Source: Haliclystus octoradiatus (taxonomy: Eukaryota; Cnidaria; Staurozoa; Stauromedusae; Haliclystidae). From it: DNA of 64,000 nucleotides. This document shows, in pieces, positions 6,165-61,829 of the stretch; position 1 is the first letter of the stretch; each line of letters opens with the position of its first letter. The notes below the pieces were generated by a model. It made no database searches. It was not told the origin of the DNA and saw only the letters and a list, made by a program, of their open reading frames with translations. A program made the position numbers and the translations under genes. The stretch covers positions 23,249,338 to 23,313,337 of the forward strand of contig OU744450.1 of the NCBI GenBank assembly GCA_916610825.1. Direction: 5' to 3'.

Positions 6165-6270
6165 TTATCTAATAGCAAATAATATATAGTGCTCAATGTC
6201 ATAAATAGCAGAGCTGTAAATAATAATAATAATAGAAAAAGAAAGGAGTCAGAGGCCACACATTCTTATA

Positions 6271-6313
6271 CTGTTACTTCAAGTTTCATGCTTTTATAGC
6301 AATCATCAGACAG
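6271..6313 (-). ncRNA. Hammerhead ribozyme motif (type I, minimal)
   Basis: On the minus strand: stem I CUGU/ACAG; core CUGAUGA; stem II UGCU/AGCA with loop AUAAA and a U-U pair at its base; GAA; stem III ACU/AGU with loop UGA; cleavage position GUA. All invariant core positions are present. The very short stem III is typical of the hammerheads described in Penelope-like elements and animal retrozymes. Cleavage activity is inferred. Confidence 0.72.
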
Positions 6314-6330
6314 AAATAATAGTTTTATTT

Positions 6331-6373
6331 CTGTCTGATGATTACTATAAAAGCATGAAACTTAAAGTTACAG
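6331..6373 (+). ncRNA. Hammerhead ribozyme motif, weakened stem II
   Basis: Mirror copy on the plus strand: stem I CUGU/ACAG, core CUGAUGA, GAA, stem III ACU/AGU with loop UAA, cleavage triplet GUU. One base change in stem II (UACU facing AGCA) breaks a pair, so this copy may be less active than its partner. Confidence 0.62.
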
Positions 6374-6440
6374 TATATGTGTGGTATCTGACTCCTTTCT
6401 CCTTCTATTATTATTAAATGAGGCTATATATATGTGTGTG

Positions 6441-8655
6441 AAGAATGAATTGTTTTTTATCAGTATTTTGTTATTAATAAACCAAAAATAACATGATGGT
6501 TTAGAATAATAACTCAGTGGGATTAATCTAGCTTGATTAAAAGTATAAAAAAAAAATCGTGAAAATATCCTGAGGCTTTATAATCAGATCGCACTCTCTG
6601 TTGGAAATTTCAGTGACATTTAAAAAGTCTATCATTTTCAATATCTAAAATCTAATTCATAATTGAATCAGTATTGGCAACCCTCAGGCGCTGAATGTAT
6701 GGACTTGGACACCCAAGTAGAAGTTGTAACCCCATTAATTCGAAAGGAATAACTGTGGAAAATTCAAATAAAAAATTCGACACGCAGCTTTGCAAAATTC
6801 AATATTCAATTCAAATCAGTCCTATGAAAATAAATTATTGTAAAACTTATCAGGTTTCTGAATAAATGATGGTGATGATGACGACAATGAACTACAAGCA
6901 CAACTCTATTAAACTGTAATCCATAAAAAGCTCTATGGACAATCAAGTATCAATAATTAATCTTCTACGCAACAGACAGAGGCATTAATTCTACCGTTAA
7001 GCGTTCAATTATCTTCTACCGGAGTTTAGTGTCTTTAGTGCTGAAGACGTCAACAAAATGGGTGTAACCCCCGCTATTACCCCCTCCTCAGTTTTGATTT
7101 TAGACCCCATATTGCGTATTGTTGGAAGATAATAGAATTATCCCCCATTGATTCATTGATTGAAAGCAATTATGCAATGGCATTGCCTCTTGAAAATGTG
7201 GGTAAAAAGAAATACGTCACTAGAAAAAGGGCGCGGAATCCTGTTCGTCATTCAGATTTTAAATAACTTTTGGTATCCACGATCGATACACCTAGTACTC
7301 ATTTTGTATGCATTCCGCAGCTGCAGTAGGAGAGTGAACTAACTGATAACTAAATGATGTACGAGGAACTCAAGGAGGGAGTGACTAAAATCTTCCGTGT
7401 GATCATTTATAAAAGCATTCAGCATGATTTAGCATGATCCCAACTTACAAATTTGGCGAGGTCAAGCTATCATAACGGCTAGTAATCAAACTACTAAATT
7501 ACTTGCGATACATCTATACTGTATACTAGTAATTAGTAATCTAAGTTTAATCAATTAATCAGCCTTATCATTTAAATGTGCCATATATTGTTCAAATCAA
7601 TATAGAAAGCGTAAAGTGTATTTGACTGCATTGACTGTAATTATCTTTTAGCAATAATAATATTGCGCGTGATTTCAATAATATCATAATTATTTAGTAC
7701 AAAATCACAATAGAAATCAATAGCAATAACTTACCTCTCCGAGGTTCGCAGCTTTATTCCAAAATAGCTGAATTGCTTATGCTGAGACAAGTTTATCTAT
7801 GACGAGATTCGCCCAGTGCATATTTAGAACTTACGGCAATGCTCAAATATACGTCTGTTATACGTATTTCAGCCCCGGGATTTCAGCAACATTCAAATGC
7901 TATATTAGCCTTCGTCAAGGGAGGGATTGGTCTCCGCTAAGACAATGAAACCATTCCCTAACCTACGTGATCATAATAATGCAAAACTGCGGGCTAAACT
8001 GACATAGCATGAATGAGCACTGTAATATTGTTTAACTGCAGAGTTGCTCAAAGTCAGGCGAATATTCAAGCCACGAATCTTGTATATTGTAACATTTGAG
8101 TATAGGATGAAAGCATTTCCAATGATACCGCAAAATGTATCAACAAATTTTAACAACATCATTTTTAGTTGAACCATAAAATAATATCGTGAAATTCGCA
8201 TAATCAGAAACAGTTTCGGATAAAGTGCAAGAGGGAAACCTGAACCAGCATTTATCACGGCAACAAACTCCTTCTCGCGTGTCTTCATAACAAGTATCGC
8301 GAATGCTGAAGCATAAATGAAGTTGATTTGTGTGAAATCCGTATACACAATTCAATTCAGAACTATAATATATTAGAAGCAAAATTTAAAACCCCAGAAG
8401 AACTGATTCTAGGATTCACAATGATTGCATTGATCCACGTCACAATTGGGACTACAATGAAGGACGTTTCCAGGATGTGTCAAAAGTCTCCCCGAGAAGC
8501 ATTTAAACGCCAACATATTAGCATTGGCTCTTAATTTTGTTTCAAGATTATATTAATTGGCGTTATTGTGTATATTTAATGCTTGTTACTGTATATCATA
8601 TATTTTAGTTTTATAATCAGTCCTGTGAATAAAAATTCTATGTGAATTTATCAGG
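6441..8655. other. Intergenic, nothing recognised
   Basis: About 2.2 kb of AT-rich sequence with no convincing gene. A 125-residue minus-strand frame (7971-8348) has hydrophobic stretches but no family I recognise, no partner exons and no splice context. Confidence 0.4.
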
Positions 8656-8659
8656 TCCT

Positions 8660-8848
8660 GAATAAGAGTTGCAACAAACCGCGCGATAAATTGCAATTCG
8701 GATAAGTGAAATTCCCACTTATTTGCAACCTGGCTTTGAAACCCGTTAAACAATTTTCTCGTCAAATCCTTGGTAAACAATTTCGGATAACTGCAAATTC
8801 GAATAAATGCAATGGCAATTTTGACTTGCACTTAAGCGGGTTACACTG
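8660..8848. mobile_element. pogo-like MITE fragment
   Basis: The right end (AAGCGGGTTACACTG followed by TA) and internal blocks (GGATAAGTGAAATTCCC) match the complete element at 59155-59323. The left end is diverged or lost. No coding capacity. Confidence 0.6.
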
Positions 8849-8849
8849 T

Positions 8850-9561
8850 ATTGGCAATCAATTTCAACATTTTATGCACACTTTTGTGGTGCTGCAAACT
8901 CCCCGGTCATTTCCCCGTACGGTTGTGATAACCATCCGTGTTTTTAAAATTTCGACTTTTAAGAAAAGGTAGAGAAAGTTTATCAAACGCATTGTATTTG
9001 TATTTCAATTTTCACTTCCTTCACCGCTTTCTCAATTTTTCTTTGTTCTCGGTCATAATTATAATAAACAATTTTAAAAATGGTTTAATATATCGAACTC
9101 GACATTCAAGTCTACAATACTTCTTGGTGCCAAACAGTCATCTAAAACACGAAGCTGCACCCAGCTTAAAAGGGCATTAATTAATGTATGCAGCTAGCTG
9201 TATTTACTCAAATACGGTGCATTAACTGTGAATGTGTAATGGTAATGTCTAGATTCCAGTCTTCGTCTATTATCTGACCTCTTCCATAATAATACAGCAT
9301 CTGCCTCTTTTGGAATTATTGAGTTATAATCCAGACGGAGGTAGATTATAGGACAGGCTCATTTGCATCTACATTTTTCTAAAATAGATCAGTCAAGGAG
9401 TATATAGATTACGACGGTTGAAGAAGAATTAGCACCTCATCGTAGTTTAATAAAGTTTTCATTTCCATGAAATTATTAATAAAAACGTCAAGTACAACAA
9501 TAAAATTATTTATAAATATGAATAACTGTGATACACAAACAACAACTACTACACTGTATAC
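8850..9561. other. 3' flank of AGPAT copy A, nothing recognised
   Basis: Non-coding AT-rich sequence downstream of the AGPAT-A stop codon. The 3' UTR must lie within it, but I could not place a poly(A) site with confidence. Confidence 0.4.
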
Positions 9562-12500
9562 TTAGATAGTTTTAATATTTTGCAAAGGAGGTAATAGTTG
9601 TCGATATTCTTCTTCGTGATCAGCCATATCTTTATTATAGACACTAAGCATTATCTTTCTACATTTAACAGCTAGATCATTTACATCATTATCCGTCAAA
9701 CCAATCGTTGAAACTGGTGGTAAGATCTCAACTCTAATATTTCCTAAAAGAAATACAAAGAAGCAAATGAATACTGCACACAGGCAATTTATCACGTGGT
9801 ATGAATTTTATGAATTGGATGCATACAGTTCGTATTCTTGGTGTTCATTTAAAATGTAAATGGAAGAAAGAACATAGAGCTTGCTGCTTAAAGTCATGTC
9901 ATGATAATTAATCATCAATCCATGTTTGATTGTCCAATCGCAGCCAACGTAAGTCATTCTCTATCATTATAATAGAATATATTGCATATTCCAACATGCA
10001 CACACTTTATGCAGCGATTAGGTCTTTACCTAAACCAAATGATCCAGGCAATTTATCACATGGTACGAATTTTATGAATTGGATGTATACAGTTCGAATT
10101 CTTGGTGTTCATTTAAATGTAAGGGACTGCTCATTATTTATGACAGGGGTTGGGACCGAAGAGCTCCAATTTTTCCACTATATATTCCTTTTACCCAACC
10201 AAAAAGAAAGTCAATTTTTTTTTACCCAACCCTATGTAATATCTCGAGGTGCATTGTTTTTTGAAACTCCTTGCACAAGGATATGGAAGTTCTTGTTTCA
10301 AGCTAGCAGCCAAAATTGCTGGTTTAGATGAAAAGTAGAGGTAAAAATGCTTCACTTCCTTCCATTTGGTATTTCAAATGGAATTGGTGGAATCATTACA
10401 TCATTTTTTTTGTTTACCCAACCTTTATTGACAATAATGTATTATTTACCCAACCCCAATCTCTTCAGCCCCAACCCCGGTCATAAATAATGAGCGGTGT
10501 CTGAATGGAAGAAAGAACATAGAGCTTGCTGCTTAAAGTCATGTCATGATAATTAATCATCAATCCATCATGTATATCAATGAATGAAAAATGGAACGTT
10601 TAATTGGTCAGAACTTTGTCCACAGGGACTACAAAAAGATATTTATTATAATATGCGAAACATGCAGTGCCCAGCAAAAAGTTTAGCCTTCTTTTTTTAA
10701 TTTTTTTTTATGCTTCCCAGGAAGATGAGTTGAACTTCGTTTGGACCAAAGTAGTTGGCCATAGCTACACTTGAGTCGTGAAAACTATACTGATAGAAAT
10801 TTCCTTCTCATAAGTGAAGTCCATCGCAGTATTTGAACATGTGTGAACCGACGAGGAATCGAACCCCGTTCTCCCGCACATAGTGCGGACACTGCCACTG
10901 AGCTACCAGTTTAGCCTTATAGAATCTTTGAACGTTTTCAATATTTTCTTCTGGATTTTTGTTGAGGTTTTGTTGGTCGATAAACCGGAAAATTATAAAT
11001 TTTCTTCAGAAATTTTTCTAACCTTCTGGGATCTATAGGATCCCCACTTTTGTCAGACCCGGCTGCGAACAAATTTTCCGGATTCAACTAGTGCATGCAC
11101 ATCGTTTAGTTATTGATTTAGAATAAACACAAAGATGAGGCAAAAGCCTTTTCCGTTACTCGGAGTTTCACGCGTTTACTTTGCGTTCATCAGACGGTTT
11201 ACTGATGAACGCAAAGTAAACGCGTGAAACTCCGAGTAACGGAAAAGGCTTTTGCCTCATCTTTGTGTTTATTCTATATTATGCTTTGTCTTAACAAACA
11301 TTGCGCACTCTCACATACATGTGTTCACCTCATATTATATTATATCATTATAGTTACTGATTTATAAAGTTGTTAGACTTTTGTTATGTGAATAGCATAG
11401 TTGAAGGCTGGGTGCCTTTTCCAGACTATTTTGAAATCTTTTACGTTACCAATTAAGAAGATTTTCAAAATTTTAAATATTTTTCTTTGTTTGATAGTAA
11501 AAATATGAATTTTTAATATTTTCTTTGTTTTGATAGTAAAAAAATGAATTTTTAGGATCAGAATTCTCGACTGCTGTAAAATTTTACCGTCTTCCCTGAT
11601 TTCTGAGAACGGTATATACCATGCACCGTCCAACAAGTATCCATCCCGGGACGAAATATCAGGCTACAAACATGAGTGATGTAATGATTAATTAGTTATA
11701 CCTGAGGTAAACTTCCATCTGAGACTGTCATAAATATTTCTGTAATTTGATACAACTACTGGTAGGACGGGAATCTGGATAAAAACAATACATACAGTGA
11801 AACCCCGTTAATATCACGACCGCGGTGCAAGCAAGAATCGTGATATTAAGCGGATCGTGATATTAAGCGGATTGACCACAGGGAGTACAAATAGTTCATG
11901 AAACAATAGAGGACAAAAGAAACAAGAAACATAGAAATGGCGAACGCAGAAATAATAATCCGAAGTTCTGAGGCGGGATATAGATATATATTATTGTAGC
12001 AGATTAATTGTACATGATTAAATTTATTTCAATAATGTATCCATCTGTGCCTCCCCCGCAAGAGATTTGAGGTGATCCATGTCAAAAGAGGCAAACATAA
12101 AAAGTTATCCCCATCACTCATGGTTTCTCACAATAGTGCTCTTCAGACGGTTTTGTTATATGGTATATCTCGATAACATGATATATATTATATGCCAAGA
12201 TAACCGCCTGATAAGCGTTATCGTTCAAACTGCTGTGTAACGGAGAAAACGTCTTATCTTTGACTCTTAATTCCTATACTGCTCAGCTATATACCTGCAT
12301 CGAGCATTCGACTGATGTTTTGATATTATGTGCTTACAGGTACAGTACAGGGTTATTGGGGTTGATAAGCATTTTAAATTTAAATATTTAAGATTGGTCA
12401 CAAAATTTCGCAGCTACAGTTGAGAGTTGATTGGGACCTATTAATGGAAAAATGCATGAATTTGATCATAATTTCAATACTTTTTGAGTTGTGAGTGTAA

Positions 12501-15500
12501 ATCTATAAGGAGGCTCATTATTTTCACAGTTGCTAAAATGTTTACTCCAAACTGTACTACATTACTCTGTTACTATCGATCAGGTTTATGAGACACATTC
12601 GTGGCAATAATGGAAACGTCGGAGGAGGAGCGACACCCCCAATAAGGAAAAACTTGGGCAATAGGGCTCTTTCACCGACTTATAAATAGATTCGCGCAAA
12701 GCTTTATGGGATAGCACAACGTACAACACTTCGATATCATTTCTGAGTTAGCTGCGTTTTGACCGCGTTCGTTGATGTTTATTGCCCAAGTTAAAAACTA
12801 ATTTACTCGATATGCAATCCACAGAACGTGATAAACCAAAAACGAAAGGTACCACGAAGCATTACTGTTGGGGTACCTGTAAATCAGATTCCTGAAGTCC
12901 GGAGAAATAAGCCGTATGAACGTTTTGTATTCGCTTCACAAATCTTGGCAAAAAGTGTGAATTGGTAGAAAACAGCAAAACAATAACAACAACTAAATCT
13001 AAAAATGTATACCAGTTTTACTAGAAATAAAATAAGGACTTGTAGCAAGTAATACACATGAACACACATATTCAAAACTACCAAGAAGACACGTAGAAAT
13101 TCCTTTCAATTATTTTATAAATAGTATTTTAACTACAAATGAGTATTAGCAACATATCATTCGGTCGGCTTATAGTCGATATTCTCGTCGCTATCAAATG
13201 ACAACTTTTAAACATAATACATTTCAATTAATAATGATGAAATATATAACCAGTAAATACAGTCGATAATCTCTTAATAAATAGTTATATATTGTAAATC
13301 AATTATAAACAGACCCAAGTAAATAGCAATCATCGTAACCACATAATAATCTGAAATACACCATAGTGACATCTTGAGGCTACATAGTTGATCTCTCCTG
13401 AAAATTGATAATTTGAAACACTAAATAACACTAACTGAGAATAATACACATGAAAATAGCCCCGGAATGTCCTAATGGGGATGACAAGAGTGGATAAACA
13501 CTGATGATAAATAGGATAGGTAGCCTACGTTACTACGTAGTTCTGATTTAGCCTAAACAACATCTGCGTATTTGCAATACAAGAGGATGAACACCGATCC
13601 ACTTGCCTTACTTAAAACAATATTCACTTTTAACAAAAATTCTTTTTCCATGGAATTTATGTTAAACATAAGCCCTCAAAAGTAATTTGCTAGATCGATA
13701 TAACAATATCATAAATGTTTCAACAAAACGACGTGCTACAAAATGTATGCTGTAGGCCTACCTTTCTTCAAGGGTTTGGCTGGTAACATGTAGTATATGG
13801 ATCCTCACACACATCTTCTTCTTCTTCACTGTTGTTATATTGATAAAACACATTTTCTGACGATGACTCCACAATGTAATGATAAATATGACCATAATTA
13901 AAGCAAGAATAGCAAGAAGCCAAGTCTCTTGACAGAAATTCACGCCAGTCTGTTGTTGGTATTTGCAACAGACCAACACTAAAACTATCACAAGATAATG
14001 CTGAAGTTGAAAGGGAAATATATTTAAATCCATACTAAATATCCACTATCAATCTTTGGGTCAACTGGTTTTGCAACAGATAAACATGCCTTCGACCCTT
14101 CGACACAACAGAAAAGATTTCAATCCAGTTGTAAAATGTTTTCACCATGACATTTTTCAAGCCAACGTTTTACTTGAACAAATCAACAATTTGAAGGAAT
14201 ATGAGGTAAAACAGCACCAGGCACCTTTACTCTATCTAGAACAATCATAGGATGGTCAAGATCCATAGTGAATCTGATAGCAGCAAGTAAAACAGCTAAA
14301 ATAAATGATGTTGTGAGATAAAATTCAGCCGCGGCTCAACAAATTCGACAACGCAATAAAATGCAATGTACGTTGAGGTATCCCACAATGCTTTTCGCGA
14401 AAAATGTGTGACGTAGGCGTGAAAGAGCCCTATTATGAGACGTAAGATCGTAAGATTGCTAAATCCTGTCATTTTGAAGGTATTGAAGTACTGAAGCGTC
14501 CAATTGAGCATATATGTCACGCCTATTTTTCGGGCAAAACTAGAAATACCTCCAAAGACATGACAGATATACTATAGTTACAACAGAGACACACAGGTGG
14601 CCATTAAACCTTCATGAACAGGGCTCAATGATGAATTAGGAATAATGACATACCTGGCATTTAATGGCTAAATGAAAGGCACCTTTCTTGAATTCTTGGA
14701 TTGTATCTAATTGATATCTTGAACCCTCAGGAAATATAATCATCGACGACTGAATAATATAACAACATAAAGTCTTAATACCGGTTATTCAATGCAGATA
14801 CTAATGTGATATTGATAAAAACATGGAGATGAAGCTGGAAAATACATCAACAAGAATAGACGAATAGATCCGCGGAGTTGACAGGATGGGTCGGTCGGCC
14901 AGAGTTACTTATAGAGTTGCACAACTTAAACACTGTGCTATTACAACTTATTTACATTACAATATTGATATACTTCCTGTAAACATAATCGTGTCATTTA
15001 TAGTTTTAGTTTAGATTCTAATATACTGTTCTGTGATCAACAACGTTTATTCTCTCGTCTCAAGTTCTAGCTTATTCACATAATACTACATGGCGCTGCG
15101 ATTATTCGAACTTTGGGATTGTTATTGTTGATTTGTTATTTATACCTTCGTCTTCGTTTGGTATATTTATTGGTTCATATTTTTCATTCATCTTACTGTT
15201 CGTGTTGTTTACATTATGCCAATGGAGACACGTCAGAATGAAAAAGCTTCCACAAGCACTGCTGGTGATGAAGAATTCTCTGATAATTCTGATTCTCACG
15301 ATCCAATAATACCTTTGGCATCTTCTATTAATCTACCTTCAGGAGATATTCCGCCATGGTTTAACGCCATTTTACAGCAACAACAACAAGCTTTTACCGC
15401 CGCTCTGCAATCCGTCGCTAAAGCAACTTCAAACCACAGAAATAACGAATCTCACTCGGGTTCAGCCAAAAGAATGGACATACCAACATTAAAAAGTCCT

Positions 15501-18500
15501 TCGAAGATAACTATTGCCGATTTTCGTGATTGGGAAGAACGATTTTCAGGTTACGCTGCTGCGACACGTTTGTCAACAGACTGCAATCTCGCTGCTCGAA
15601 GAGGCATACTAAGATCTGCAATTCACGACGATTGGTCAAAGTTGTGGACAGCCAAAGTAATCTTGGTCAACGATATCGATGATACAGACGCAATAATAGA
15701 CAAATTTAGTCATTATCTTCGAGATAAACGAAATCCACTGCTTGATCGAAAAGAATTTCACAACAGGGACCAACTTCCTGATGAGACGATAGATCAATAC
15801 TACGCCGTTCTACGCACGCTTGATGAAAGCTGTGGGTTTTCCCCTGAGTTAACATGCGAAACATGTCACGCAGACACAGGAATATCACAAAACATGCGGG
15901 ACGAAAGACTGCGGGACCGTCTAATATGTGGCCTCCGCGATGTTGACACGCAACAAAAAGTCCTGGCAGAAAAATTTTCTACGCTTACATTAAAGAAAAC
16001 ATTAGACATTTGTACATCTCACGAGGCAAGTAAGACAACACAAGACAAGTTAGCAACCTCTTCAACAATTAATGTCTCAGCAATCAAAAGCAAGAAGCCT
16101 TACAAGAAATCAGAAAAACCAAATACTAACCATGTATATCTTAATGCATTGTCAAATACAACTGATACAATCAAGCTACTAACTACACATGAACATGGAC
16201 CCTCATACCTTCATTGGCTACCTGACACTGGTGCTGCATGTGACGTCCTAAGTGTTCAACATTTAAAGGCATTAAACTGTGACCTTTTATTAAAGTTGAA
16301 GCCAGCTACTGATCAACTATTTACAGCTAATTCAACACCTCTATCAACACTTGGTCGCTGTTCTCTGACAATCAAACTTAACAACAATCAATACACTGCT
16401 GACATTCATGTGGTGGACGCTGTCAATGCACCATTACTAAGCAAAAAAGGATGCATTGCGTTGGGTCTTATTCCTGAAAACTGGCCAGACTTATCAGCAG
16501 CTACTCCTGTCAACACTGTGTCTCTATTGGCAAGCACTGACCAAGAAGCTCATCACATCAATCTACCAACACAGCAATCTTCCAACGATGACGCCACACA
16601 ACTTATAAAGGAATTCTCTTCTGTTTTCACTGACACAGGACCACTACGGAAAATGGATGGCCCTGCAATGAAGATAGAGCTGACCGAAGACGCCACACCT
16701 ACTCGCCAATACAAAGCGTATAATATACCGTTTAAGTGGCAGAAATTGGTACAAGCACAACTAGATTCGATGATCACAAAGGACATCATAGAAAAAGTTC
16801 CTTTGAACGAATCACCACAATGGATTCACCCTATGGTTGTCGTTCCAAAGAAGAACTCTACAGAGCCAAGAATCACAGTTGATCTCACATCACTAAATCG
16901 GTTTGTCAAAAGACCTGGTTATCCATCACGCACACCACGAGATCTGATCGCCAACATCCCGCCTGGAATGAAATACTTCACTACCTTGGACGCCCGTCAT
17001 GGCTACTGGCAAGTACCTCTGGCTACTGAATCAAGACCGCTCACTACATTCATCACACCCTGGGGCTGTTACCGCTTTAGAAGGAATGTCATGGGTCTTA
17101 TCAGCGCTGGCGATGAGCACAACCGACGTGGAGATGAAGCATTGGCTGGCATTGACAACCTACAGAAAGTGGTGGAAGACGTCATCATCTACGACAAAGA
17201 CTATGACACACACATCAAACGAGTCAAAGACGTCTTAAAGAGATGCTCTGATAATGGTATCACCTTGAATAAAAAGAAATTTCATTTTGCTCAATCATCT
17301 GCTGAATGGTGTGGGTATGTTATTACTTCAACTGGTTACACGTTAAATCCTCGCCTGGTTACTGCATTGACAGAATTTCCACAACCAACATCATTGACGC
17401 AACTACGCTCTTTCCTTGGTCTGGTACAACAGTTTGAATCATTTTCATCTGAAATTTCACAACTGGCAACACCACTACGAGCTCTACTGTCACCTTCAAC
17501 ATCTTTCTATTGGAATCAACTCCACCAAGATGCATTCAAAGGCCTCATCAATGAACTAACTAGTCCACGCATCCTTGCTCATTTCAATCCACAAGCTCAA
17601 CTCCGACTTGAAACAGATGCTGCACAATCTAAAGGACTTGGCTATGCTCTATGGTCCGAACAAGATGACAAAACTTGGCGCCTCCTACAATGTGGTTCAC
17701 GCTTTGTCACTGATGCAGAGTCCCGCTACTCTGCTACTGAAATTGAATTGGCCGCAGTCGTTTGGGCAACCCAGAAGTGCAAAATGTTTTTACATGGGTC
17801 ATCATTTAACCTAATTGTCGACCACAAGCCACTAATATCCATCCTCAATGACAAGCGTCTGCACCAAATTCCAAGTGCAAGAATCATTCGCCTCAAAGAA
17901 AAGTTATCATCATTTTCATTCACTGCTATCTGGCGTGCTGGTACAAGTCACACCGTCGTCGATTGCTTCTCACGACATCCAGTTGATCAACCAAGTCCAG
18001 ACGATGTCAACATTGATACAGATGCTGATTCAAGCTTCCAAGTAAATCACATCCAAACTCGTCTTCAATCAACTGATGCTACCAACTTTCCACCAGACGC
18101 AACTCTCAACAAAGTCAAATCTGCAGGTGAAAATGACGCAGTACATCTCAAGCTAGCTGACCTGATCATTAATGGCTTCCCACAACAGAAGGAAAAACTG
18201 GACATCAGCATTCACCCCTATTGGTCACTACGTCACGATCTGTCACTCTTGGAATCATCAATCATCCTCTACCAAGATCGCATTCTTATCCCAAAATCTC
18301 TTCGATCGACTATGCTGAATGAACTCCACACATCTCATCTTGGTCTAACTCGAACTCTTGCACGAGCTCGACAATGTATTTTTTGGCCAAATATGACCAA
18401 CGAAGTCACAAATCGAATTCGGTCATGCGAAGAATGTGCCCAAAGACTGTCATCCAACTCACATGAGCCACTTATTCAAGACACACCACCAACTCGTCCT

Positions 18501-20939: not shown

Positions 20940-21126
20940 CTTCTTCAGAATAAAATAAAAATCTTCAGTGTGTTCCACTTCAAATTACATAATTCCTAGC
21001 TTCTTTATAACAATTTTTCACTCTGTAAATTAAATGTGTAAAATGTGTATAGTGTTATACCAAATTCTTTTGCATAGAGAAGCGGGGTGATTTGTTGGCT
21101 TTATTTCTACCTGAACCAAAAAGTTT

Positions 21127-22022
21127 GTGTTGTGTTGTTGTGTTTACAAAAATTTCATGCCTCAATGCTTATTTATCTTCACTTTTGACCTTACACATTG
21201 GCTCATTGTTTTGTCATCCTTTCGCTTACAAATAAAAGCCGCTGATGACAATCACTCACGGTTATCTCGGATGCTGTTTACTGTTGAAAATATCTTCAAT
21301 GAAGATATACCTTTCGGTATTTTCAAAGAACGTTTCATTACCGTGAGAATACTGCTGAAAAATTGAGTGCAAGTGCAAAATTCGACCTCCGTTTTTTGGA
21401 AATATTCATCCAAACCTTCTCCGAAAAACTATCCATCGAGAATCGAGATCCAAATTACCGCTATAGTTATCCCAGAAGCTACCTTGGAGTTATTCGTATC
21501 AGTTTATCATTGGTCGCTCTATCACAACCAGAACCTTTTGTCACAGTAAAAGCCTACACAAGCATCAAGATCAAATATATTGCCAAGAGTGTATTGCATG
21601 GTTTACCCATGCTAGAATTCGAAAAAATTCAAACCACAACGACGATAAACGAGACTCGGCCGAACTATTTATGTGCACAAAATCAGCATTTTAAGTCTTC
21701 AACTTCTACATTCCAATTGCAAAATGAGGCATTCGGCGAAGAAGGATTTAGGCAAGCATTTAAGGATGCTACATTGTTTCTGCTGACTTAGTTGGTAAAT
21801 CGATATCAACAAATACATCGAAGTCGTTCTAAAATCATTCGCAGGAGAAAATCAAATATACAGCCTGTAACAGTAGTATCGTCCCATACATGCACTATAT
21901 GTTTTACTATTACTATTATGTTACATAATAATTTATGTATTCATATAAATATTTATCACATAATTGAATGCTACTTCATTACTTGCTGTATGTTTGAAAG
22001 AAGATGTTTAGTTATTGTATGA
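21127..22022 (+). pseudogene. Possible decayed alpha-kinase-like fragment
   Basis: Between the two AGPAT genes the plus strand holds consecutive frames (21127-21366, 21363-21791, 21792-22022) separated by stops. The middle one ends with AFGEEGFRQAFKDA, which resembles the glycine-rich N-lobe motif of alpha-kinases (FxxGxxRxAF). The next frame opens with VNRYQ, where alpha-kinases have V-K-x-Y. No intact domain can be followed, and the resemblance rests on these short motifs only. It may equally be chance. Confidence 0.22.
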
Positions 22023-22039
22023 TTTATATTTATTTATTT

Positions 22040-25000: not shown

Positions 25001-28000
25001 CACTAATTTATCTCAAACTGGTTGCACATTTAAAATAATTCATAAACTACTATGATTCTAAGTTTGACTATCATTGCTTGACTCTTTGATACCAAAGTTA
25101 TTTAGTTTGCAAAATATGAATTATACTATACTCATTCCGCTTTGTTGACAAAGTCTCAAAGCCATCTTTTTCTTTTTGAATTATAAGGTCTCTCAAATCA
25201 AAGCAAGATATGCCGCTGACTACATATCACTCAACATGTATCACATGCATAGACATGTATCGACGTAAATTGATAAAATTTCATGAAAAAGCTCTATCAA
25301 ATTTATTATGTTTAGATATATAACCGTCCAGGTTGACAAAGGTTTTTTTGGGGGAGGGGGGTCAAAATGCTGGTCTTTCACTTGAACTTGTAGGTCTATC
25401 CAAATAAATTGAGACATGCAGATGACTAGATATCACTAGATACTACTCTTAGACATGTATCGAAGTAAATTCAAAATATTTCTCGAAAAAAGATCCAGTT
25501 TATATTTAGATATAGCCGCTTGAGTTGACAAAGGGGACATTTGGGGTTTTTCAAAAAGCTGGGCTTACACCTTCTCCAACTTCTAGGTCCCTCAAAGTGA
25601 AACAAGGGGTGCTGATGATTAAGTATCATTAGAGATTACTCTTTGACAAATTATATTGAAGTAGGTTCAAAACATTTCTTGACAAAATATCAAGTTTATA
25701 TTCAGATTGAGCCATTTAAGTTATCAAAGGGGGCATTTGTGTCTTTTCAAAAAGCCGGATTTACACTTTTTCCAATTTCTAGGTCCCTCATATTAAAATA
25801 AGGGATGCCGATGACTAGATATCAATAGAGATTTCTCTTAGACAAGTATTCAAAACATTTCTTGAAAAAATATCTAGTTCATATCTAATAATAAATAAAC
25901 ACAAAAATCAGACATTCATATCATATCTATAGATTAAATTGCATGATGATCGCTCAAGGCGAAACTATTAGTAGCAAATATGAATGTCTCATTTTTGCAT
26001 TTATTTATTATTAAACAGCTCTGCTTTTATGGCATCAAACAATATTAAAACAGCAATGACTACACAATCACTTTTATGTTATTATTAGTGTATATTTAGA
26101 TACATCAATTTGAGGCTATATATTTTATACCTTAAATTAATATTTTTTCATGAAATTTGTGCTTTTTATTTAGTTAATTAATTAATGGAATTCTTAATTT
26201 ATCGGCCTCTTTTTATATTATTACATGATTGTTTAATTACAAATGTTAAACTTGGATGACGTAGCTACATGAATAGGTATTCTGAATTATGCCTAAGTTT
26301 GATTATGGTGTCGTTATTTGAATGTAATAGATGATAGCATGTCACATCTTTAACTTATAACGTAATGTTACTTCGGGATTGTTTTGAGAGCACTATATTC
26401 AATCATAACGTAGCCCTATTTTTAGAATGCTGAGCAATTAGATAATTTAGGTATTTTGCCTATATAGGTAACCTAGTTTAAAGAGCACATGACACAACAA
26501 ATTTTTAACACAGATTCAAGTAGCTGAAGCTAAATGATGAAGAATGGTGACAATGATTTCTTAGTTGAAACTGTATAAGCGGAGATATTTAATGTTGAAT
26601 CTGTCCTATTTTCAATCATTTTTTATGCTTGAAATAAATATAATTTATTAAGAAATACATGAAATACAAGGGAATTTAGTTGTTGGATTTATCTCTCAAA
26701 AATGTGGCAGTCATCCTCAGCAGCATGCAGTTGGACTGTGCACATGCTGTTTTACGTACACATTACCTCAATTTGTGACATTTGTTTGTCAGGTGTTTGG
26801 GTGTTCTACGACGACGGAATTATTAATTTGAAATAGTTAATTTTAATAGCAAAGATATTCATGTGTTTAGTGTTATGTTGTTTCAATGTTCTAACAATTT
26901 CATTTGTTCCTCAATGTTCTAATAGTTGAACAAATATACAAACTGTAACACAAATTAAACTCCACAGACGCTGGGTGTCGTTTACAAGTAATATCTGGTG
27001 ATATCTAGTCATCGGCATCCCTCGTTTTAATTAAAGGGACCTAGAAGTTGGAGAAAGTGAAAATGCGGATTTTGAAAACCCCAAATGCCCCCCTTGTCAA
27101 CTTAAATGGCTCTATCAAAATATAAGCTAGATGTTTTTTGAAGAAATGTTCTGAATTTACTTCGATTTATGTCTAAGAGTCCCATCTAGTGATATCTAGT
27201 CATCTGCCTGTCTCAATTTACTTTCAGAGACCTAGAAGTTGGAAAAAGCGTAAAACCCAGCTTTTTGAAAAACTCAAAATGCACCCCTTGTCAACTTAAA
27301 TGGCTCTATCTATTTATAAACTAGATATTTTGTCAAGAAATGTTTTGAATTTACTTCGATATGTGTCAAGGAGTAATCTCTGATGATATCTAATCATTGG
27401 CACCCCTTGTTTTAATTTGACGGACCTAGAAGCCGGAGAAAGTGTGAACCCAGCTTTTTGAAAAACCCAAAATGCACCCTTTGTCAACTTAAATGGCTCA
27501 ATCTAAATATTAGATATTTTGTCAAGAAATGTTTTGAATTTACTTCGATACGTGTCAAGGAGTAATCTCTGATGATATCTAATCATTGGCACCCCTTGTT
27601 TTAATTTGACGGACCTAAAAGCTGGAGAAAGTGTGAACCCAGCTTTTTGACAAACCCAAATGCCCCCTTTGTCAACTTAAGTGGCTATATTTACATATAA
27701 ACTCGATCAATTTTCGAGAATTATTTTGAATTTACTTGAATACATGTCTAGGAGTAATCTCTAATGATATCTTATCATCGGCATCCCTTGTTTTATGTTG
27801 AGAAACCTACCTAGAAGTGGGAGAAAATGTAAACCTAGCTTTTTGAATAAACCCAAATGCCCCCTTTGTCAACTTAAGTGGCGGTATCTAAATATAAACT
27901 TGGTCGATTTTCAAGAAATATTTTGAATTGATTTTGATACATGTCTAAGATTACTACCTAATGATATCTAGTCATCTGCATGTCTCAATTTATTTGGAGA

Positions 28001-31000: not shown

Positions 31001-33661
31001 TAAGGGTCCTTCCACACAATTATATCCCTGCTATTGGGTTACCTATATAGGCAAAATATCTAAATTATCTAATTGCTCAGCATTCTAAAAATAGTGTTAC
31101 GTTATGATTGAATATTAGTGCTCTCAAAACAATCCCGAAGTAACATTACGTTATAAGTTAAAGATATGACATGCTATCATCTATTACATTCAAATAACGA
31201 CACCATAATCAAACTTAGGCATAATTCAGAATACCTATTCATGTAGCTACGTCATCGAAGTTCAACATTTGTAATTAAACAATCATGTAATAATAGAAAA
31301 AGAGGCCGATAAATTAGGAATTCCATTAATTAATTAACTAAATAAAAAGCACAAATTTCATGAAAAAATATTAATTTAGGATATAAAATATATAGTCTCA
31401 AATTGATGTATCTAAATATACACTAATAATAACATAAAAGTGATTGTGTAGTCATTGCTGTTTTAATATTGTTTGGTGCCATAAAAGCAGAGCTGTTTAA
31501 TAATAAATAAATGCAAAAATGAGACATTCATATTTGCTACTAATAGTTTCGCCTTGAGCGATCATCATGCAATTTAATCTATAGATATGATATGAATGTC
31601 TGATTTTTGTGTTTATTTATTATTAGATATGAACTAGATATTTTTTCAAGAAATGTTTTGAATACTTGTCTAAGAGAAATCTCTATTGATATCTAGTCAT
31701 CGGCATCCCTTATTTTAATATGAGGGACCTAGAAATTGGAAAAAGTGTAAATCCGGCTTTTTGAAAAGACACAAATGCCCCCTTTGATAACTTAAATGGC
31801 TCAATCTGAATATAAACTTGATATTTTGTCAAGAAATGTTTTGAACCTACTTCAATATTTGTCAAAGAGTAATCTCTAATGGTACTTAATCATCAGCACC
31901 CCTTGTTTCACTTTGAGGGACCTAGAAGTTGGAGAAGGTGTAAGCCCAGCTTTTTGAAAAACCCCAAATGTCCCCTTTGTCAACTTAAGCGGCTATATCT
32001 AAATATAAACTGGATCCTTTTTAGAGAAATATTTTGAATTTACTTCGATACATGTCTAAGAGTAGTATCTAGTGATATCTAGTCATCTGCATGTCTCAAT
32101 TTATTTGGATAGACCTACAAGTTTAAGTGAAAGACCAGCATTTTGACCCCCCTCCCCCAAAAAACCTTTGTCAACCTGGACGGTTATATATCTAAACATA
32201 ATAAACTTGATACTTTTTCATGAAATTTTATCAATTTACGTCGATACATGTCTATGCATGTGATACATGTTGAGTGATATGTAGTCAGCGGCATATCTTG
32301 CTTTGATTTGAGAGACCTTATAATTCAAAAAGAAAAAGATGGCTTTGAGACTTTGGTCAACAAAGCGGAATGAGTTACATGAGTATAGTATAATTCGTAT
32401 TTTGCAAACTAAATAACTTATCAAAGAGTCAAGCAATTATAGTCAAACTTAGAATCATAGTAGTTTATGAATTATTTTAAATGTGCAACCAGTTTGAGAT
32501 AAATTAGTGCGCGCTTTTAGAAGAACCAGACAGTTTTATTGCCAACGTAGGCCTATCGAAGGTTTTATAGACTTTGTTGAACTCGACTGTCGTGTTTTTG
32601 CAAAATCAATATCGAGCTGCTCTTTGTTGAAGCATTATCAAATACTGCCAACAGTTTCAAACTTAGATAATTCATAATTTATTATGTGCTTACCTTTTTA
32701 GCGATATAGATTCTCGACTACAGTGTGTCTAGAACCATAGAATAATCAAATACTAGGCCATGACATTCAGAAATTAAGATTTATGCCGTCGACTATTCGA
32801 CGAAATTGACTTAATAATAAAAGTTTTTCTGAATCCATTTAATCGTAAATTTTTTATTGTGAAGTGTAATCAAGTATTCAATTTTCATTAAGAAATATAA
32901 AGTGTAATCTAAATATAAGTCAATGGTTTCCTTCGTTTAACGTCTGCTTCTGATCGCCATTTTGTAAAGATAACTTACGTGTTCGGCTTTGGCCGCACAA
33001 TTAGAGCAAATTGACCGCTTTGGATATGTTACGGCACATGCGCGCGCAGGTGGTCACAACTTCTATCTGTTTGTCAAATCGCCCCCGGGACCAATATATA
33101 GAAAAAAAACATGGTTGAAGTATATCGTATTATTAAATACCTTAAGATTCTGCACTCTTGCTGCTGCATCATTCATAACTTCAATTGCATTTTTTGTGTT
33201 TCCTCTTGGGATAAACGTACAGCCATAAAGCCATGATGATACACCGAAAAAGGGAACATAAAAATTGGAACTTTTCATTAGGCAACTTGTTCTTGAAGAG
33301 GCAAACTAACAACATAAAGATTCATTAACATAATTACTGAATCAAAGTTAAAAATGAATCATAAGTAAATTTCAAAACTTACATGTGTCAATATTGGCAT
33401 ATCAAGCATAGACTGATGATTAATTATCATGACATGAGTATCGCCAGCCAATTTTAAATTTTCTTTTCCTTTAATTTTCAAACGAAGGCCAAGAATACCA
33501 ACTGTACGCATCCATTTTGTAAAATTTATTGCATATGAAATATTTCCTGGATTATTTGGTGTTGGTAATGACAAAATGGCAGCAAAAAGGGCCGCAAAGC
33601 CAACCCACAAACACATAACTGAGAATTTTACATGAAATACAATATAATTGATAAAACTCAT
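22040..33661 (-). CDS. AGPAT: 1-acyl-sn-glycerol-3-phosphate acyltransferase, copy B
   Basis: Tandem paralogue of copy A with the same role. Exons (minus): 33383-33661, 33141-33305, 23496-23591, 22873-22945, 22040-22227. Exons 1-4 have exactly the lengths of copy A (279, 165, 96 and 73 bp), with the same phases. The product is 266 residues. Motifs: NHQSMLD (HX4D, exon 1), GCTFIPRG (exon 2), FPEGSR then FKKGAFHLA (exon 3), IPIVPVV (exon 4), LPPVST in the last exon. The frame is open upstream of the ATG at 33661 without another Met, so an extra N-terminal exon is possible, as in copy A. Intron 1 is only 77 bp. Intron 2 is 9.5 kb because it holds nested foldback elements. Confidence 0.88.
22228..23495. 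other. AGPAT-B introns 3 and 4
   Basis: Two introns of about 645 and 550 bp around exon 4. I see no element in them. Short blocks near the exon-3 donor resemble copy A, consistent with the duplication including introns. Confidence 0.4.
24118..24431. mobile_element. MITE with C/G-run ends, interrupted
   Basis: Begins CCCGGGGGGTAACTCC and ends with GGAGTTATCC plus a C run, an inverted pair also seen at 46778-47128. It is flanked by ACCAATA at 24111-24117 and, beyond the giant insertion, at 33090-33096. The giant foldback element therefore landed at this MITE's right tip, leaving its last bases at 33083-33089. Confidence 0.72.
25150..25880. repeat. Subrepeat array in the left outer arm
   Basis: Three to four tandem units of about 190-210 bp, recognisable by CTAGGTCCCTCA, GACAAAGG and AGATATCA blocks. 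The mirror-image array is at about 31640-32330. Confidence 0.75.
25939..25977 (+). ncRNA. Degenerate hammerhead motif
   Basis: Stem I UUGC/GCAA, AUGAUGA in place of CUGAUGA, stem II CGC/GCG, and stem III ACU/AGU followed by A. The G of the GAAA box is missing, so it is probably inactive. It lies in the inverted pair 25890-26030 of the left outer arm. Confidence 0.45.
26482..29793. mobile_element. TTAA foldback element, 3.3 kb (nested)
   Basis: Bounded by TTAA on both sides (26478-26481, 29794-29797). Terminal inverted repeats begin AGAGCACATGACACAACAAA. The outer 0.5 kb of each arm (26482-26995 and 29285-29793) match in inverse. The interior is two opposed arrays of about 190-bp subrepeats meeting near 28165. 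TTAA sites fit piggyBac- or Kolobok-type transposition. A relative is at 34107-36359. No open frame of note. Confidence 0.82.
27000..29280. repeat. Opposed tandem arrays of about 190-bp units
   Basis: Five to six units point one way (about 27000-28140), and five to six point the other way (about 28190-29280). Units share GACCTAGAAG, CCCAGCTTTTTGA, TTTGTCAACTTAA and TTGAATTTACTTCGATAC blocks. The same unit is found in the outer arms of the host element, so the unit predates or has moved between the two elements. Confidence 0.8.
29802..31033. other. 1.2-kb insertion with GC-rich hairpin start
   Basis: Present only in the right arm. The left arm joins directly at the equivalent site near 26476. 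It opens with GC-rich palindromes (GGCCCCGCGAAGCGAGGGGC, GGGGCCGCGAAGCGGCCCC) and ends near a 10-bp stem hairpin GGAAGGACCC/GGGTCCTTCC (about 30989-31013). It was acquired after the palindrome formed. Element class unknown. I see no coding sequence I trust. Confidence 0.6.
31534..31572 (-). ncRNA. Degenerate hammerhead motif (mirror copy)
   Basis: Minus-strand counterpart of the motif at 25939-25977 in the right outer arm, with the same AUGAUGA core and missing G. Probably inactive. Confidence 0.42.
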
Positions 33662-34106
33662 ATTAACAAGTTCCAACTTTTCTTAACAAATATTATAAAG
33701 TTTAGCTTTATTTAAAAATGTACTAGTCTTTGGCCTTAATTAATACCGTCGTGCCGCTAGATCGTAGATATGATTATATCAGCTATTAAATAGTAACACG
33801 TTTGTCATCCAAAGGAACAATTAATTAAGTTGTCCGAAGTCAAATATGTCAAATATGTTCGAAGAGTGGAACGTCAACGCAATCAAAATACCAACAATAT
33901 TCATACACGATTGTATTTGAATCTTCGTCACTAATGAGCTCAATATGATTAATCAAATATCATTTAAGAATAGCTCAAGGGTCTTATTATGCACTAAAAT
34001 AAAATTGTATGCTTTGTAACTGTGCGTACAACATAATGCGTACAGACTGAACGTCCGAACAGAGTATACGATACGTGTTTCGGGTCCACAGTTTTCTATT
34101 TATTAA

Positions 34107-36359: not shown

Positions 36360-36369
36360 TTAAATATTT

Positions 36370-39715: not shown

Positions 39716-40847
39716 GATTATTTTTTATTCAATCATAGGGATGTGATATGAACTTGACAAAATAATTTTTCAAGACCTGCTCAACTATATATGCTAGTTT
39801 TTCGTATATAGAATTAAAAATGTGAAATCTAGCAGGTCAGCATCGATTTAGATAATTTGAAACGACGCGTGAAATGTTATCAATCAACAATGACTGAATT
39901 ATTAATACTTTATCGTTTGGAATTTTCTCGAATGTGGGAATTATTGTAAAGTTTGCATGCAGAGATTTTACGTGATTATACTGTATGCAGGTGATCTTTA
40001 GCATTGCATTTTGCAAAACTTATAGTAATTTTATACATGCTACTGCCAGCGGAGAGAGAGAGTATCCCATCAATAATTTAAAAAAAAATACAAAATATAC
40101 ACGAATGTAACTATAAATCCTTCTGATCGGGACTTTTTTTTGTCAATTTTGCCCGACAAAACCGACGACTAATGGGTATTATGCCCGAGAAAAGGGCATG
40201 GCATTTGCATATTTGTGGGCTTCAGTACTGTAAGTCTTCAAAAATGCACAGTTTTGCAATTTTTCGGTCCAAAATTGCCCAAAATATGAGTCAAAATGTT
40301 TTGACAGGGAAGAGGAATTTAGGGTCGGTAAAGTATCATAGTATATAGACATCTGTACAATAAAAGTTACCAAAAATTTGTTCATATTATTCATATATTT
40401 ATGATGTTATAGTGCATTACATTTTTAATGTCTAAAATTAAAATCCAATTTTATAGAAATCAACAATTTCAAAAACAAATACAAAACAATGAATTTAAAC
40501 TGTCGATCAAAACAAAATTAACAATCAATTACAGTTGCGTAGCAACAATTACGTAGCGCTGTAACATCGCTGCTATATAGTGTGATACAATATTCTAGAG
40601 GATAAAAACATGTAAATTTCCTTAAATAATACAGTATTTACAAAATACACAAGAGTATTGAAGATCTCTTATATGCGTAATTTGATACGTTTAAGCAAAA
40701 TATAAAATCCGTTTCCTGTGATTTTTGTTGATATAGTGATACTTATTTGTGGCTATGTAGAAACGAATTTGCATTTGCTAATCTCATGATATTGATTTGT
40801 TGCTATAGTGCGGATAGTGATTATACCCACGTAATTTTGAATTGGCG
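39716..40847. other. Intergenic between the GTPase-like gene and ZER1
   Basis: About 1.1 kb, AT-rich. It holds the promoter side of the GTPase-like gene and the 3' side of ZER1, which point the same way. No element or RNA gene recognised. Confidence 0.4.
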
Positions 40848-60247
<19,400 letters not shown>

Positions 60248-60365
60248 TTTGTATATTATAAAAGTATATTATTTCGAAATATTCAGTGAAATATAATGTC
60301 TTGATTGAATAATCATAAGAAAATCAATAATTAAAAATAAAGTCTCCTTGGTGTTGACCGTGTTT

Positions 60366-60385
60366 CCGGCCGCCATTTTTAAACA
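60366..60385 (-). promoter_or_regulatory. YY1-like motif upstream of ZER1
   Basis: On the minus strand AAAAATGGCGGCCGG, about 125 bp upstream of the ZER1 start codon. AAnATGGCGGC is the strong YY1 site often found at or just after TATA-less transcription starts, in this same orientation. A core promoter here is inferred. Confidence 0.45.
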
Positions 60386-61215
60386 CACACAATCCGCTTT
60401 TGCAAGGAGTTTTTGCAATGAAAACAATAGTAGGGAAAAACCTGGGGTTAGCTATGCGGACATTTTCTGGAAAAATTGCTTTATCGTATTACCCGAACCA
60501 TCTATTTATATTTGTAAATAGATGGCCCTGACAGTAACCTCTCAAGTAACTTAGCGTGTTTTATATATACGATTGTCTACATGAAATTGTACGCCTTTAC
60601 GCTACTTAAAATTCAGCCGTTAAGAGAAGGTAAATCTTACTGCAATAATACTGCATGTAACACTCATGATGCTGTTCAAATAATGTATTTCTACGGAATA
60701 GATAAATCAATGAATAAAATATACCGGTAATTTAAAACAGATTTGATACCAGTAATATTTATATATATACAATAACACGTTTACAATATCATAATATAAA
60801 TTTGTTAAAATATACTTTGACATTAGAAATTGATAATTGGAATCAAAATTTGAAAATATCGAGGTGCTTAAAAATAAAGTACTGTCTTCAATCTAATGAT
60901 TATACAACTGTTTTATCGATGTTTCTTTTTGAATTGTAAGCTTGCCAGCAGACATTAGAAGTTGATTTATACTCCGAGAAGCCATATATATCGTTAATGA
61001 ATAATTAAATCAATTAAGATAATTCCATACTTCAAAATTCAATTCCTTGAAATCATTTTTAGAACAGCACCCACGATTCAACGTGTCTGCTAGCTATAGT
61101 CAGACTATAGAGTTACGTCAACTATGTCCTTGGGAAGGAATATTGACGATAAATAAATCTCTAATCTGGTCCAATCACTCAGTTCCAATGGCGTTGAGGG
61201 ATCAACATGAGATAT
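60386..61215. other. Intergenic upstream of ZER1
   Basis: No gene seen. Near 60504-60533 an ATCTATTT...AAATAGAT inverted pair resembles the fused tips of the hAT MITE family. Confidence 0.4.
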
Positions 61216-61329
61216 TTACAGCAAACATGTTTCTGAAATCGAAGGAAGAAGTTCTGAAGAGAGTTTCAGTGCATCAGATGCTGCTGTGTTGCGTTCCTTT
61301 ACAAATCCAAGTTCATCGTAGACACAAGC
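61216..61329 (-). CDS. Possible terminal exon of an unidentified gene
   Basis: Minus-strand frame of 37 codons plus a stop, preceded by a good acceptor (TTTTATTTTTTAG). It reads YDELGFVKERNTAASDALKL and onward to a TAA at 61216. Composition is protein-like and no plus-strand frame is better. Upstream exons would lie above 61330 or beyond the window, and I could not find one. The hAT element at 61830-63565 would then be in its intron. Family not recognised. Confidence 0.35.
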   Translation of the reverse strand, partial: ACVYDELGFVKERNTAASDALKLSSELLPSISETCLL

Positions 61330-61659
61330 CTAAAAAATAAAACATAATACTCAAAATTAGAACTTAAATGTGAAATAATTAAGTATGTATTATCCGGTAT
61401 GGGGGAGGAGGCATTTTTAAAAATGACTTTACGAGCAAACAAAGGAAAAGTTAAAAAAAAAAGAAAATCTCTAAATTGACAGCGTAAAATTTGATAAGAA
61501 TCTGGAAAAGGCACCCCTTACAAATGGCACGTCCCCATGCAGCCGATGTATGGAAGTCCATCGATAGTATAATTATTACCTATGCACGACATTGCACAAG
61601 GTCAAGGTATTAGGGATGAACAGCACAAGGTATAATTATAATTTTCAATATATAGAATT

Positions 61660-61800
61660 GACACAAAGACGAGGCAAAATCCTTTTCCGTTACTCGGAGT
61701 TTAACGCGTGAAACTCCGAGTAACGGAAAAGGCTTTTGTCTCATATTTGTGTCTATTCTATATTATGCTCTGTCTTAGCAAACATTGAGCACCCTCACAT
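61660..61800. mobile_element. Hammerhead-palindrome element with collapsed centre
   Basis: Same edges and arms as the copy at 11110-11330 (CCGTTACTCGGAGTTTAACG, then its inverse), but the CUGAUGA core and stem II are deleted. The tail GCTCTGTCTTAGCAAACATT with GAGCACCCTCACATAC is kept. Confidence 0.75.
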
Positions 61801-61829
61801 ACAATATAGAAACAGCCAATAACCAGAAA

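Follow-up and report, generated by a model that had tools for sequence, protein, structure and literature searches.

Head-to-head hammerhead palindromes in Haliclystus octoradiatus: probable insertions of Penelope-like elements

Results

Palindromes of one plan in the window

Several short palindromes with hammerhead-like motifs lie in a 64,000-nt stretch of the staurozoan Haliclystus octoradiatus genome (contig OU744450.1, positions 23,249,338 to 23,313,337), hereafter the window, which we analysed against 262 Mb of searched genome. A sequence-only reading had described about ten loci sharing one plan, namely inverted arms that each carry a hammerhead ribozyme, a GAGTC box and a common tail. 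That count held: a profile of five arm types, named by position as F6, F11, F42, F43 and F58, placed 17 arms of one kind at 11 loci, and a palindrome scan returned six clear head-to-head palindromes (6261-6383, 11108-11287, 42377-42825, 43469-43693, 58136-58353 and 61646-61767). Here, we report that three of the arm types belong to Penelope-like elements (PLEs), and that the palindromes are probably PLE insertions.

The inverted arrangement applies to the six palindromes and, outside them, to 25944-26043 and 31477-31567, which have an inverted partner above the null; the partner of 12203-12309 is borderline against the null, and for 57246-57308 and 58404-58543 one was looked for and none was found. 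The elements at 25944-26043 and 31477-31567 lie on opposite strands with identical upstream sequence, and flank large inverted repeats at 27-29 kb. Read in the sense direction, an arm consists of a short leader, the hammerhead, a GACTC box and a first 3′ end, while the tailed arm continues through a GCTC..GAGC stem-loop to a second 3′ end; the 3′ ends of paired arms face outwards. The box that had been claimed is present in most types but not in F11. The features are listed below (ORF, open reading frame).

6139..6155 (+): target duplication of the F6 insertion, left copy, 17 nt, TAAATGAGGCTATATAT
6160..6412: F6-type head-to-head pair; (-) core at 6309 with the tail reaching 6160, (+) core at 6335 without tail
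6415..6431 (+): target duplication of the F6 insertion, right copy
11116..11329: F11-type head-to-head pair; (-) core at 11193 perfect, (+) arm tailed
12203..12309 (+): decayed arm, inverted partner borderline
25944..26043 (+): decayed arm with inverted partner; A replaces the first C of the core
31477..31567 (-): copy of the 25944-26043 element on the opposite strand
42275..42981: F42 PLE, 5′-truncated inverted pair in a (TAA)n tract; cores (-)42349 and (+)42854, (+) arm tailed
42526..42594 (-): last codons of the PLE ORF in the left arm, 91% identity over 23 residues
42599..42676 (+): last codons of the PLE ORF in the right arm, 92% identity over 26 residues
43484..43735: F43 leader palindrome; cores (-)43566 and (+)43596, (+) arm with the tail stem-loop, (TAA)n on the left
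57246..57308 (-): decayed F6-like single arm
58135..58148 (+): target duplication of the F58 insertion, left copy, 14 nt, TAAAGCTTAAAGTA
58147..58394: F58 leader palindrome; cores (-)58223 and (+)58266, (+) arm tailed
58404..58543 (+): older F6-like arm adjoining the F58 insertion
58424..58437 (+): target duplication of the F58 insertion, right copy, inside the older F6-like arm
61650..61803: F11-type pair, truncated, with its centre inside the hammerhead; (+) arm tailed

Arms shared with coding Penelope-like elements

The arms of the palindromes also flank coding units. A genome-wide search with the F42 arm, in which 40 of 1249 candidates were scored, found F42 arms both inverted and in tandem 2523 bp apart. 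Between the arms of this 2.5-kb tandem unit lies a frame of 461 amino acids whose stop stands shortly before the hammerhead; the frame is probably incomplete, since it ends 9 bases from the locus edge and its relatives measure about 700 amino acids. At the tandem junction follow in order the ORF end, the untranslated region, the hammerhead, GACTCC, (ATT)n, a stem-loop, (ATT)n again, a second stem-loop and an ATG, and the codons after this ATG fit the start of the family alignment. The 42-kb pair in the window keeps the last 23-26 PLE codons in each arm.

The PLE frame protein has 3730 relatives at E of at most 0.001, and the genome's own frame is 61% related to one of them, P0004. The best match of the predicted P0004 structure (pLDDT 89) in the PDB is the telomerase reverse transcriptase TERT (3du5, E 1.8e-8); other telomerases take ranks 4, 6, 9 and 10, and the places in between and further down go to retron, DRT, LINE and viral polymerases. 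The model thus shows a reverse transcriptase (RT) fold, and by rank TERT would be its nearest relative. At the C-terminus, the family alignment holds a VYxA..YIG..RY..H..E pattern with a predicted strand-strand-helix-helix-strand-helix order, both of which we take to resemble GIY-YIG. A sequence search of the PDB named no PLE protein match, and the Aegerolysin, MTS and prion rows of the Pfam and PDB sequence searches were dismissed as chance-like.

F43 arms stand in tandem 2490-2518 bp apart in four of the six tandem cases among the places listed (see below), and the one coding F43 copy that we read, by eye (L131), carries the PLE C-terminus and a stop about 170 nt before the core. A second PLE, about 57% identical, is present at the F58 loci; its copy in L082 is interrupted. 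Because the same arms form the pseudo-long terminal repeats (pLTRs) of PLE coding units, F42, F43 and F58 are, on sequence grounds, PLE families. The sequence-only reading had pointed to a Penelope link and proposed a genome-wide search for palindromes and a Penelope-type RT sharing their ends; both were found for these three families. Its suggestion of an undescribed class of coding-free palindromic element is not supported, as the same arms are pLTRs of coding PLEs and inverted pLTRs have been published.

Hammerhead motifs and covariation of their stems

The motif has the layout CTGANGA, stem II, GAA, ACT..AGT, A or T, stem I. A scan of the window found such cores starting at (-)42349, (-)11193, (-)6309, (-)58223, (+)42854 and (+)58266, every scored stem being perfect at 11193 and 42349; ten matches reached a score of at least 9, four of them chance-like, while six shuffles gave 0-2 per strand. 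When the core CTGANGA..GAAACT..AGT was searched without any pairing filter in the window and 131 fetched loci, it returned 70 distinct sequences in 12 clusters, and none in one mononucleotide shuffle of the same material. This filter-free set replaced a first covariation count of 13 sequences, which was circular since most had come from a filter requiring pairing.

With one sequence per cluster, and two degenerate clusters included, 88.6% of stem cells pair, whereas pairing falls to 30-47% in slid controls. Seven of the 11 stem pairs changed on both sides, a number reached by 11 of 500 shuffles, and 17 cells changed on both sides against 6.2 in shuffles, none of the 500 reaching 17; the number of further stem pair types was not above shuffles (388/500). 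The core is invariant across arm types and so is stem III, which therefore supplies no covariation evidence. The stem II pair adjoining the core is unpaired in 8 of the 12 clusters, several variants having U-U opposed at the stem II base. By these sequence counts, stems I and II covary between families, as had been claimed from the window and as now extends beyond it, although the count is not a number of independent events because a single genome supplied all clusters, most of them through arm-fetched loci. The motifs are therefore predicted minimal type-I-like hammerheads, putatively self-cleaving.

Rfam, the check proposed earlier, had no match at gathering score in the window, and at E of at most 1 those palindromes that match do so with microRNA models only, which recognise no more than the hairpins. 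The single relaxed hammerhead match in the window is a different motif, at 46710.

This motif (46710-46760, (+)) is a classical-core hammerhead (CTGATGAGTCTC..GGGACGAAACACGTGTC) outside the palindromes, with stem I GGTCT/AGATC and stem II GTCTC/GGGAC, scoring 25 bits with Rfam Hammerhead_3, below gathering. Its minimum-free-energy fold pairs stem I differently and is no better than shuffles. We liken it to the type I motifs of animal retrozymes.

A hammerhead in each arm, as first described, is found in intact pairs but not throughout. In many F11-family copies, a short shared centre leaves stem I on one arm only, and at 61646-61767 the palindrome centre falls within the motif. When four isolated motifs were folded, F43 alone beat shuffles, and its fold was not a hammerhead. 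A transcript of the palindrome at 43 kb is predicted to form a single hairpin of -158 kcal/mol, in which two hammerheads should not act; a functioning ribozyme pair in that transcript is thus unlikely by this model. Selection on the stems must then act on ordinary PLE RNA, and it is there, outside the palindrome, that the hammerhead would act.

Order, spacing and centres of the short palindromes

The exact 43-nt F43 arm occurs at 257 + 240 = 497 places genome-wide, and a reversed control at none. Among the 100 places listed of these 497, with neighbours taken within 5 kb, 34 of 41 neighbour pairs are divergent, six tandem and one convergent, and 23 arms are lone; the convergent pair consists of two palindromes side by side. 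Divergent spacings among these places fall into two groups, 57-94 nt (17 pairs) and 566-3757 nt (17 pairs), with none between. A pattern defining the short class (exact inner 15-mers 10-40 nt apart) matches 75 places genome-wide.

An alignment of 21 F43 copies shows near-identical arms around differing centres. The palindrome thus seems not to be inherited as a unit, and the variable filler implies that each was joined anew. At one F6 palindrome centre (L112), the filler holds GGTTAGGGTTAG, two telomere-like units; this is a single case and may be chance.

One tail per pair

We assembled 83 head-to-head pairs distinct in sequence, counting identical places once (which removed four F43 places); four without enough flank were dropped, leaving 79 scored for the tail with probes that are tail-free, except that of F43, which reaches about 14 nt into it. 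Exactly one arm is tailed in 77 of the 79 pairs (F6 21/21, F58 14/14, F42 5/5, F43 17/17, F11 20/22), where free choice would give about half. Both exceptions are F11 pairs, L028 with two tails and L014 with none; the F6 pairs L120 and L121 resemble copies of one event. This near-strict rule suggests, at the level of sequence, that two RT start sites are used together.

The common tail of the sequence-only reading is borne out as the GCTC..GAGC stem-loop, which stands right after the first start site in all five families. Its inner pairs vary (TGTC/GACA, TGA/TCA, TGT/ACA), F6 forming the outer four only, and F42 has a second such stem-loop after the second start site. It is probably an RT binding or start signal.

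Sharp 5′ ends

Measured against the coding copy L131, 50 of 68 F43 arms end at position -17 or -18, counted in nt from the core; of the rest, 15 are shorter and 3 extend beyond this point. These arms represent 34 distinct centres among 42 pooled rows, some of which are the same place. In F58, 17 of 28 arms end at -16 to -19. Conservation drops at arm 5′ ends in the four families measured, in which only about 7-18 nt separate the end from the hammerhead core.

Next to the F43 ends at -18 stands G in 20 of 29 arms, in place of the C of the element (p 9e-5 for an expectation of one third, with arms taken as independent although two share a centre; a C there would score as a longer match, and 3 arms run longer). 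In a stricter set of 16 centres, with filler of at least 3 and both arms at TTGAGT, 20 of 31 arms have A at -18, G precedes this A in 14 of the 20, and the genomic CA occurs in one. Cap copying would leave just such an additional G ahead of the first transcribed A, as known from work on LINE-1. The G counts point to a capped RNA 5′ end at the F43 -18 A.

No arm among 288 arm rows from the fetched loci, overlapping ones included, starts within 3 nt of the hammerhead cut site; the use of hammerhead probes to collect these loci biases the count against cut arms. This agrees with the in vitro use of unprocessed templates (PMC11167929).

Targets, duplications and ages

In 14 of 17 cases F43 is bordered by (TAA)n left and right, against 46 of 2666 window 24-mers, with a probe whose own ~16 nt of (TAA)n favoured such flanks. 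Of 46 pairs, 26 have a word of at least 8 nt containing G or C in common between their two flanks; among mismatched flanks the figure is 52 of 688 (F6 8/18 against 32/306, F58 5/11 against 3/110, F11 13/17 against 17/272). Duplications are unreadable in F43 and most F42 pairs because their flanks are (TAA)n. The end of the tail-less arm is identical in (TAA)n, (TTA)n and (TA)n targets.

Arms diverge by 0.2% in F43 (17 pairs, the copies compared being best matches to the window copy), by 9% in F58 and by 11-12% in F6 and F11, which suggests very recent activity of F43. An excess of arm similarity within pairs is borderline in F11, where 108 of 2000 shuffles are as low, and is not seen in F58 (533/2000).

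Other features of the window

The window also holds an ORF with Peptidase_A17 and RT domains at 840-4976 (-) and one with RT, RNase H and integrase domains at 15216-19388 (+), which from these domains we take to be BEL/Pao-type and Gypsy-like, respectively.

Discussion

We consider it likely that the palindromes are PLE insertions made by two-sided target-primed reverse transcription of a capped mRNA leader at two start sites. The pLTR or 5′ leader of the PLE would carry the minimal hammerhead; the PLE enzyme would open AT-rich DNA by a staggered cut, and both DNA 3′ ends would prime reverse transcription of capped sense PLE RNA, the first, (AUU)n-like start site serving for one cDNA and the second, beyond the GCUC..GAGC stem-loop that forms the tail, for the other. 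The two cDNAs would meet 5′ end to 5′ end and be joined with few filler bases. If the start sites used are those of the 5′-terminal pLTR copy of the RNA, both cDNAs would run off at the capped end, for F43 17-18 nt before the hammerhead core, and leave a short coding-free palindrome; if they are those of a downstream pLTR, long 5′-truncated arms would result, as at 42275-42981. This choice of start would explain the gap in the F43 spacings, and an arm with an intact hammerhead implies that its source RNA was not cut at that site. The F42, F43 and F58 PLE units, divergent order, sharp 5′ ends, variable filler, single tail and target duplications are read directly from the DNA, and from them we infer the cap, the double priming and the end-joining.

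Several observations weigh against this account or parts of it. Of the F58 arms, 11 of 28 lie off -16 to -19, with pairs L078, L090, L081 and L079 misfitting, and arms end near -7 in F6 and at about -5 to -7, with a blurred edge, in F11. Next to the F43 -18 ends, A stands in 7 and T in 2 of 29 arms, and beside the -17 ends the most frequent base is T (13/21), a pattern that this account leaves unexplained. The fetched loci also include 25 neighbour pairs in other than divergent order; 16 belong to F11, some of these coming from head-to-tail arrays. F6 arms are slightly more alike within than between pairs (9 of 2000 shuffles as low). Pfam scans of the PLE protein named no PLE domain and gave no GIY-YIG match, and the precomputed PF26215.1 or PF28514.1 assignments on many relatives, P0004 included, were not reproduced by our own scan. 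The one tail per pair is not predicted from PLE activity in vitro, which shows no difference in start site between strands (PMC11167929). Finally, no coding copy was seen for F6 or F11, which may on that account be non-autonomous; they share arm plan, tail and one-tail rule with F42, F43 and F58 and are presumably PLEs as well.

The F11-type head-to-tail arrays have 65-nt units near L012 (C6:3032349-3032625) and 126-nt units in L009.

Palindromes could also arise by self-priming, in which the 3′ end of a cDNA snaps back and copies itself, so that the second arm is a copy of the first. This is the published reading of inverted junction palindromes in rotifer Penelope elements (PMC3846280), it predicts the slight excess of within-pair similarity seen in F6, and some fillers, by eye, resemble element sequence. 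A copied arm, however, would carry the tail unless synthesis always stopped at the first start site, and just one tail is present in 77 of 79 pairs; the tail-less end is constant across (TAA)n, (TTA)n and (TA)n targets; and both the fillers of 0-14 nt at the 21 of 34 centres where both arms reach TTGAGT and the G next to A on many arms fit separate run-off ends better. We therefore regard self-priming as unlikely, if the most serious competitor. Still less probable is a non-autonomous foldback retroelement, a whole hairpin unit transcribed and inserted by PLE proteins: near-identical short palindromes are many and F6 and F11 have no known coding copy, but a copied unit would keep its centre, and F43 has 34 distinct centres in 42 rows while its arms differ by 0.2%, a refuting pattern that covers F43 and not F6 or F11.

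Two further classes of element share traits with the palindromes. Retrozymes, in which a small circular hammerhead RNA is inserted as head-to-tail tandem copies, include short animal elements with type I hammerheads (PMC7229834), and the arrays at L012 and L009 are of this form. Against such an origin, which we hold to be very improbable, 34 of the 41 F43 neighbour pairs among the places listed are divergent, the six in tandem are separated by 1.9-4.1 kb, and 0 of 288 arm rows begin within 3 nt of the cut site. A miniature inverted-repeat transposable element or foldback DNA transposon with long terminal inverted repeats would likewise be palindromic, short and coding-free with target duplications; yet the outer ends are unequal, the tail standing on one side only in 77 of 79 pairs, and for F42, F43 and F58 it is refuted by their arms forming the pLTRs of PLE units, which makes this origin scarcely credible.

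Two-sided priming on a capped leader, the reading we prefer, may extend to a more general and distinctly more tentative model, in which PLE integration is obligately two-sided and asymmetric, a dimeric ribonucleoprotein assigns one start site on a capped mRNA to each DNA end, leader palindromes are left by mRNAs through use of their 5′ pLTR, and the hammerhead cut switches the fate of the RNA. If this were true, every PLE insertion would have one tailed and one tail-less arm, and the cut, by removing cap and leader, would turn the RNA from leader insertion and translation to full-length templates. The fresh leader palindromes of this genome preserve a natural record of both junctions as well as the RNA 5′ end, which suggests that the template is sense, capped and uncut and that the two start sites are coupled.

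Much of the system is already published, namely PLE hammerheads, inverted pLTRs, junction palindromes, the tail and AT-rich targets. Head-to-head inverted pLTRs with junction palindromes are a published PLE feature, and in rotifer PLEs the tail is optional on one inverted pLTR (both PMC3846280). The Anolis PLE cuts and extends both strands in vitro, prefers ATT, has two internal start sites, the stretch between which is the tail, and uses mainly unprocessed RNA (PMC11167929). In the literature searched, which covers PLE papers incompletely, we found neither leader-only palindromes with a sharp cap-like 5′ end nor a near-strict rule of one tail per pair, and the literature search found no paper joining hammerhead ribozyme, palindromic, inverted repeat and retrotransposon. 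Minimal PLE hammerheads with a conserved core, little or no helix III and a need for dimers were reportedly described by Cervera and De la Pena in 2014. That work is cited in PMC6155905 and PMC7229834; nothing essential differs here, apart from several variants with U-U at the stem II base.

Animal retrozymes resemble the palindromes in being short and coding-free with type I hammerheads, but they are reported as circular RNAs and tandem repeats (PMC7229834), unlike the divergent pairs tied to PLE units here. With Penelope/Poseidon PLEs (Adineta vaga Pen, Anolis PAc, Drosophila virilis Penelope), the elements share a TERT-like RT with a possibly GIY-YIG-like C-terminal region, tandem and inverted pLTRs, head-to-head junction palindromes, AT-rich targets, a tail on one inverted pLTR and a hammerhead in the pLTR (PMC11167929, PMC3846280). 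They differ from PAc, whose hammerhead overlaps the ORF start, in that the F42 hammerhead precedes the ORF (PMC11167929), and from rotifer PLEs, in which the tail is optional (PMC3846280), in that the tail rule is nearly strict. What sets them apart from Penelope/Poseidon PLEs at large is an abundant, discrete coding-free class whose arms end sharply before the hammerhead.

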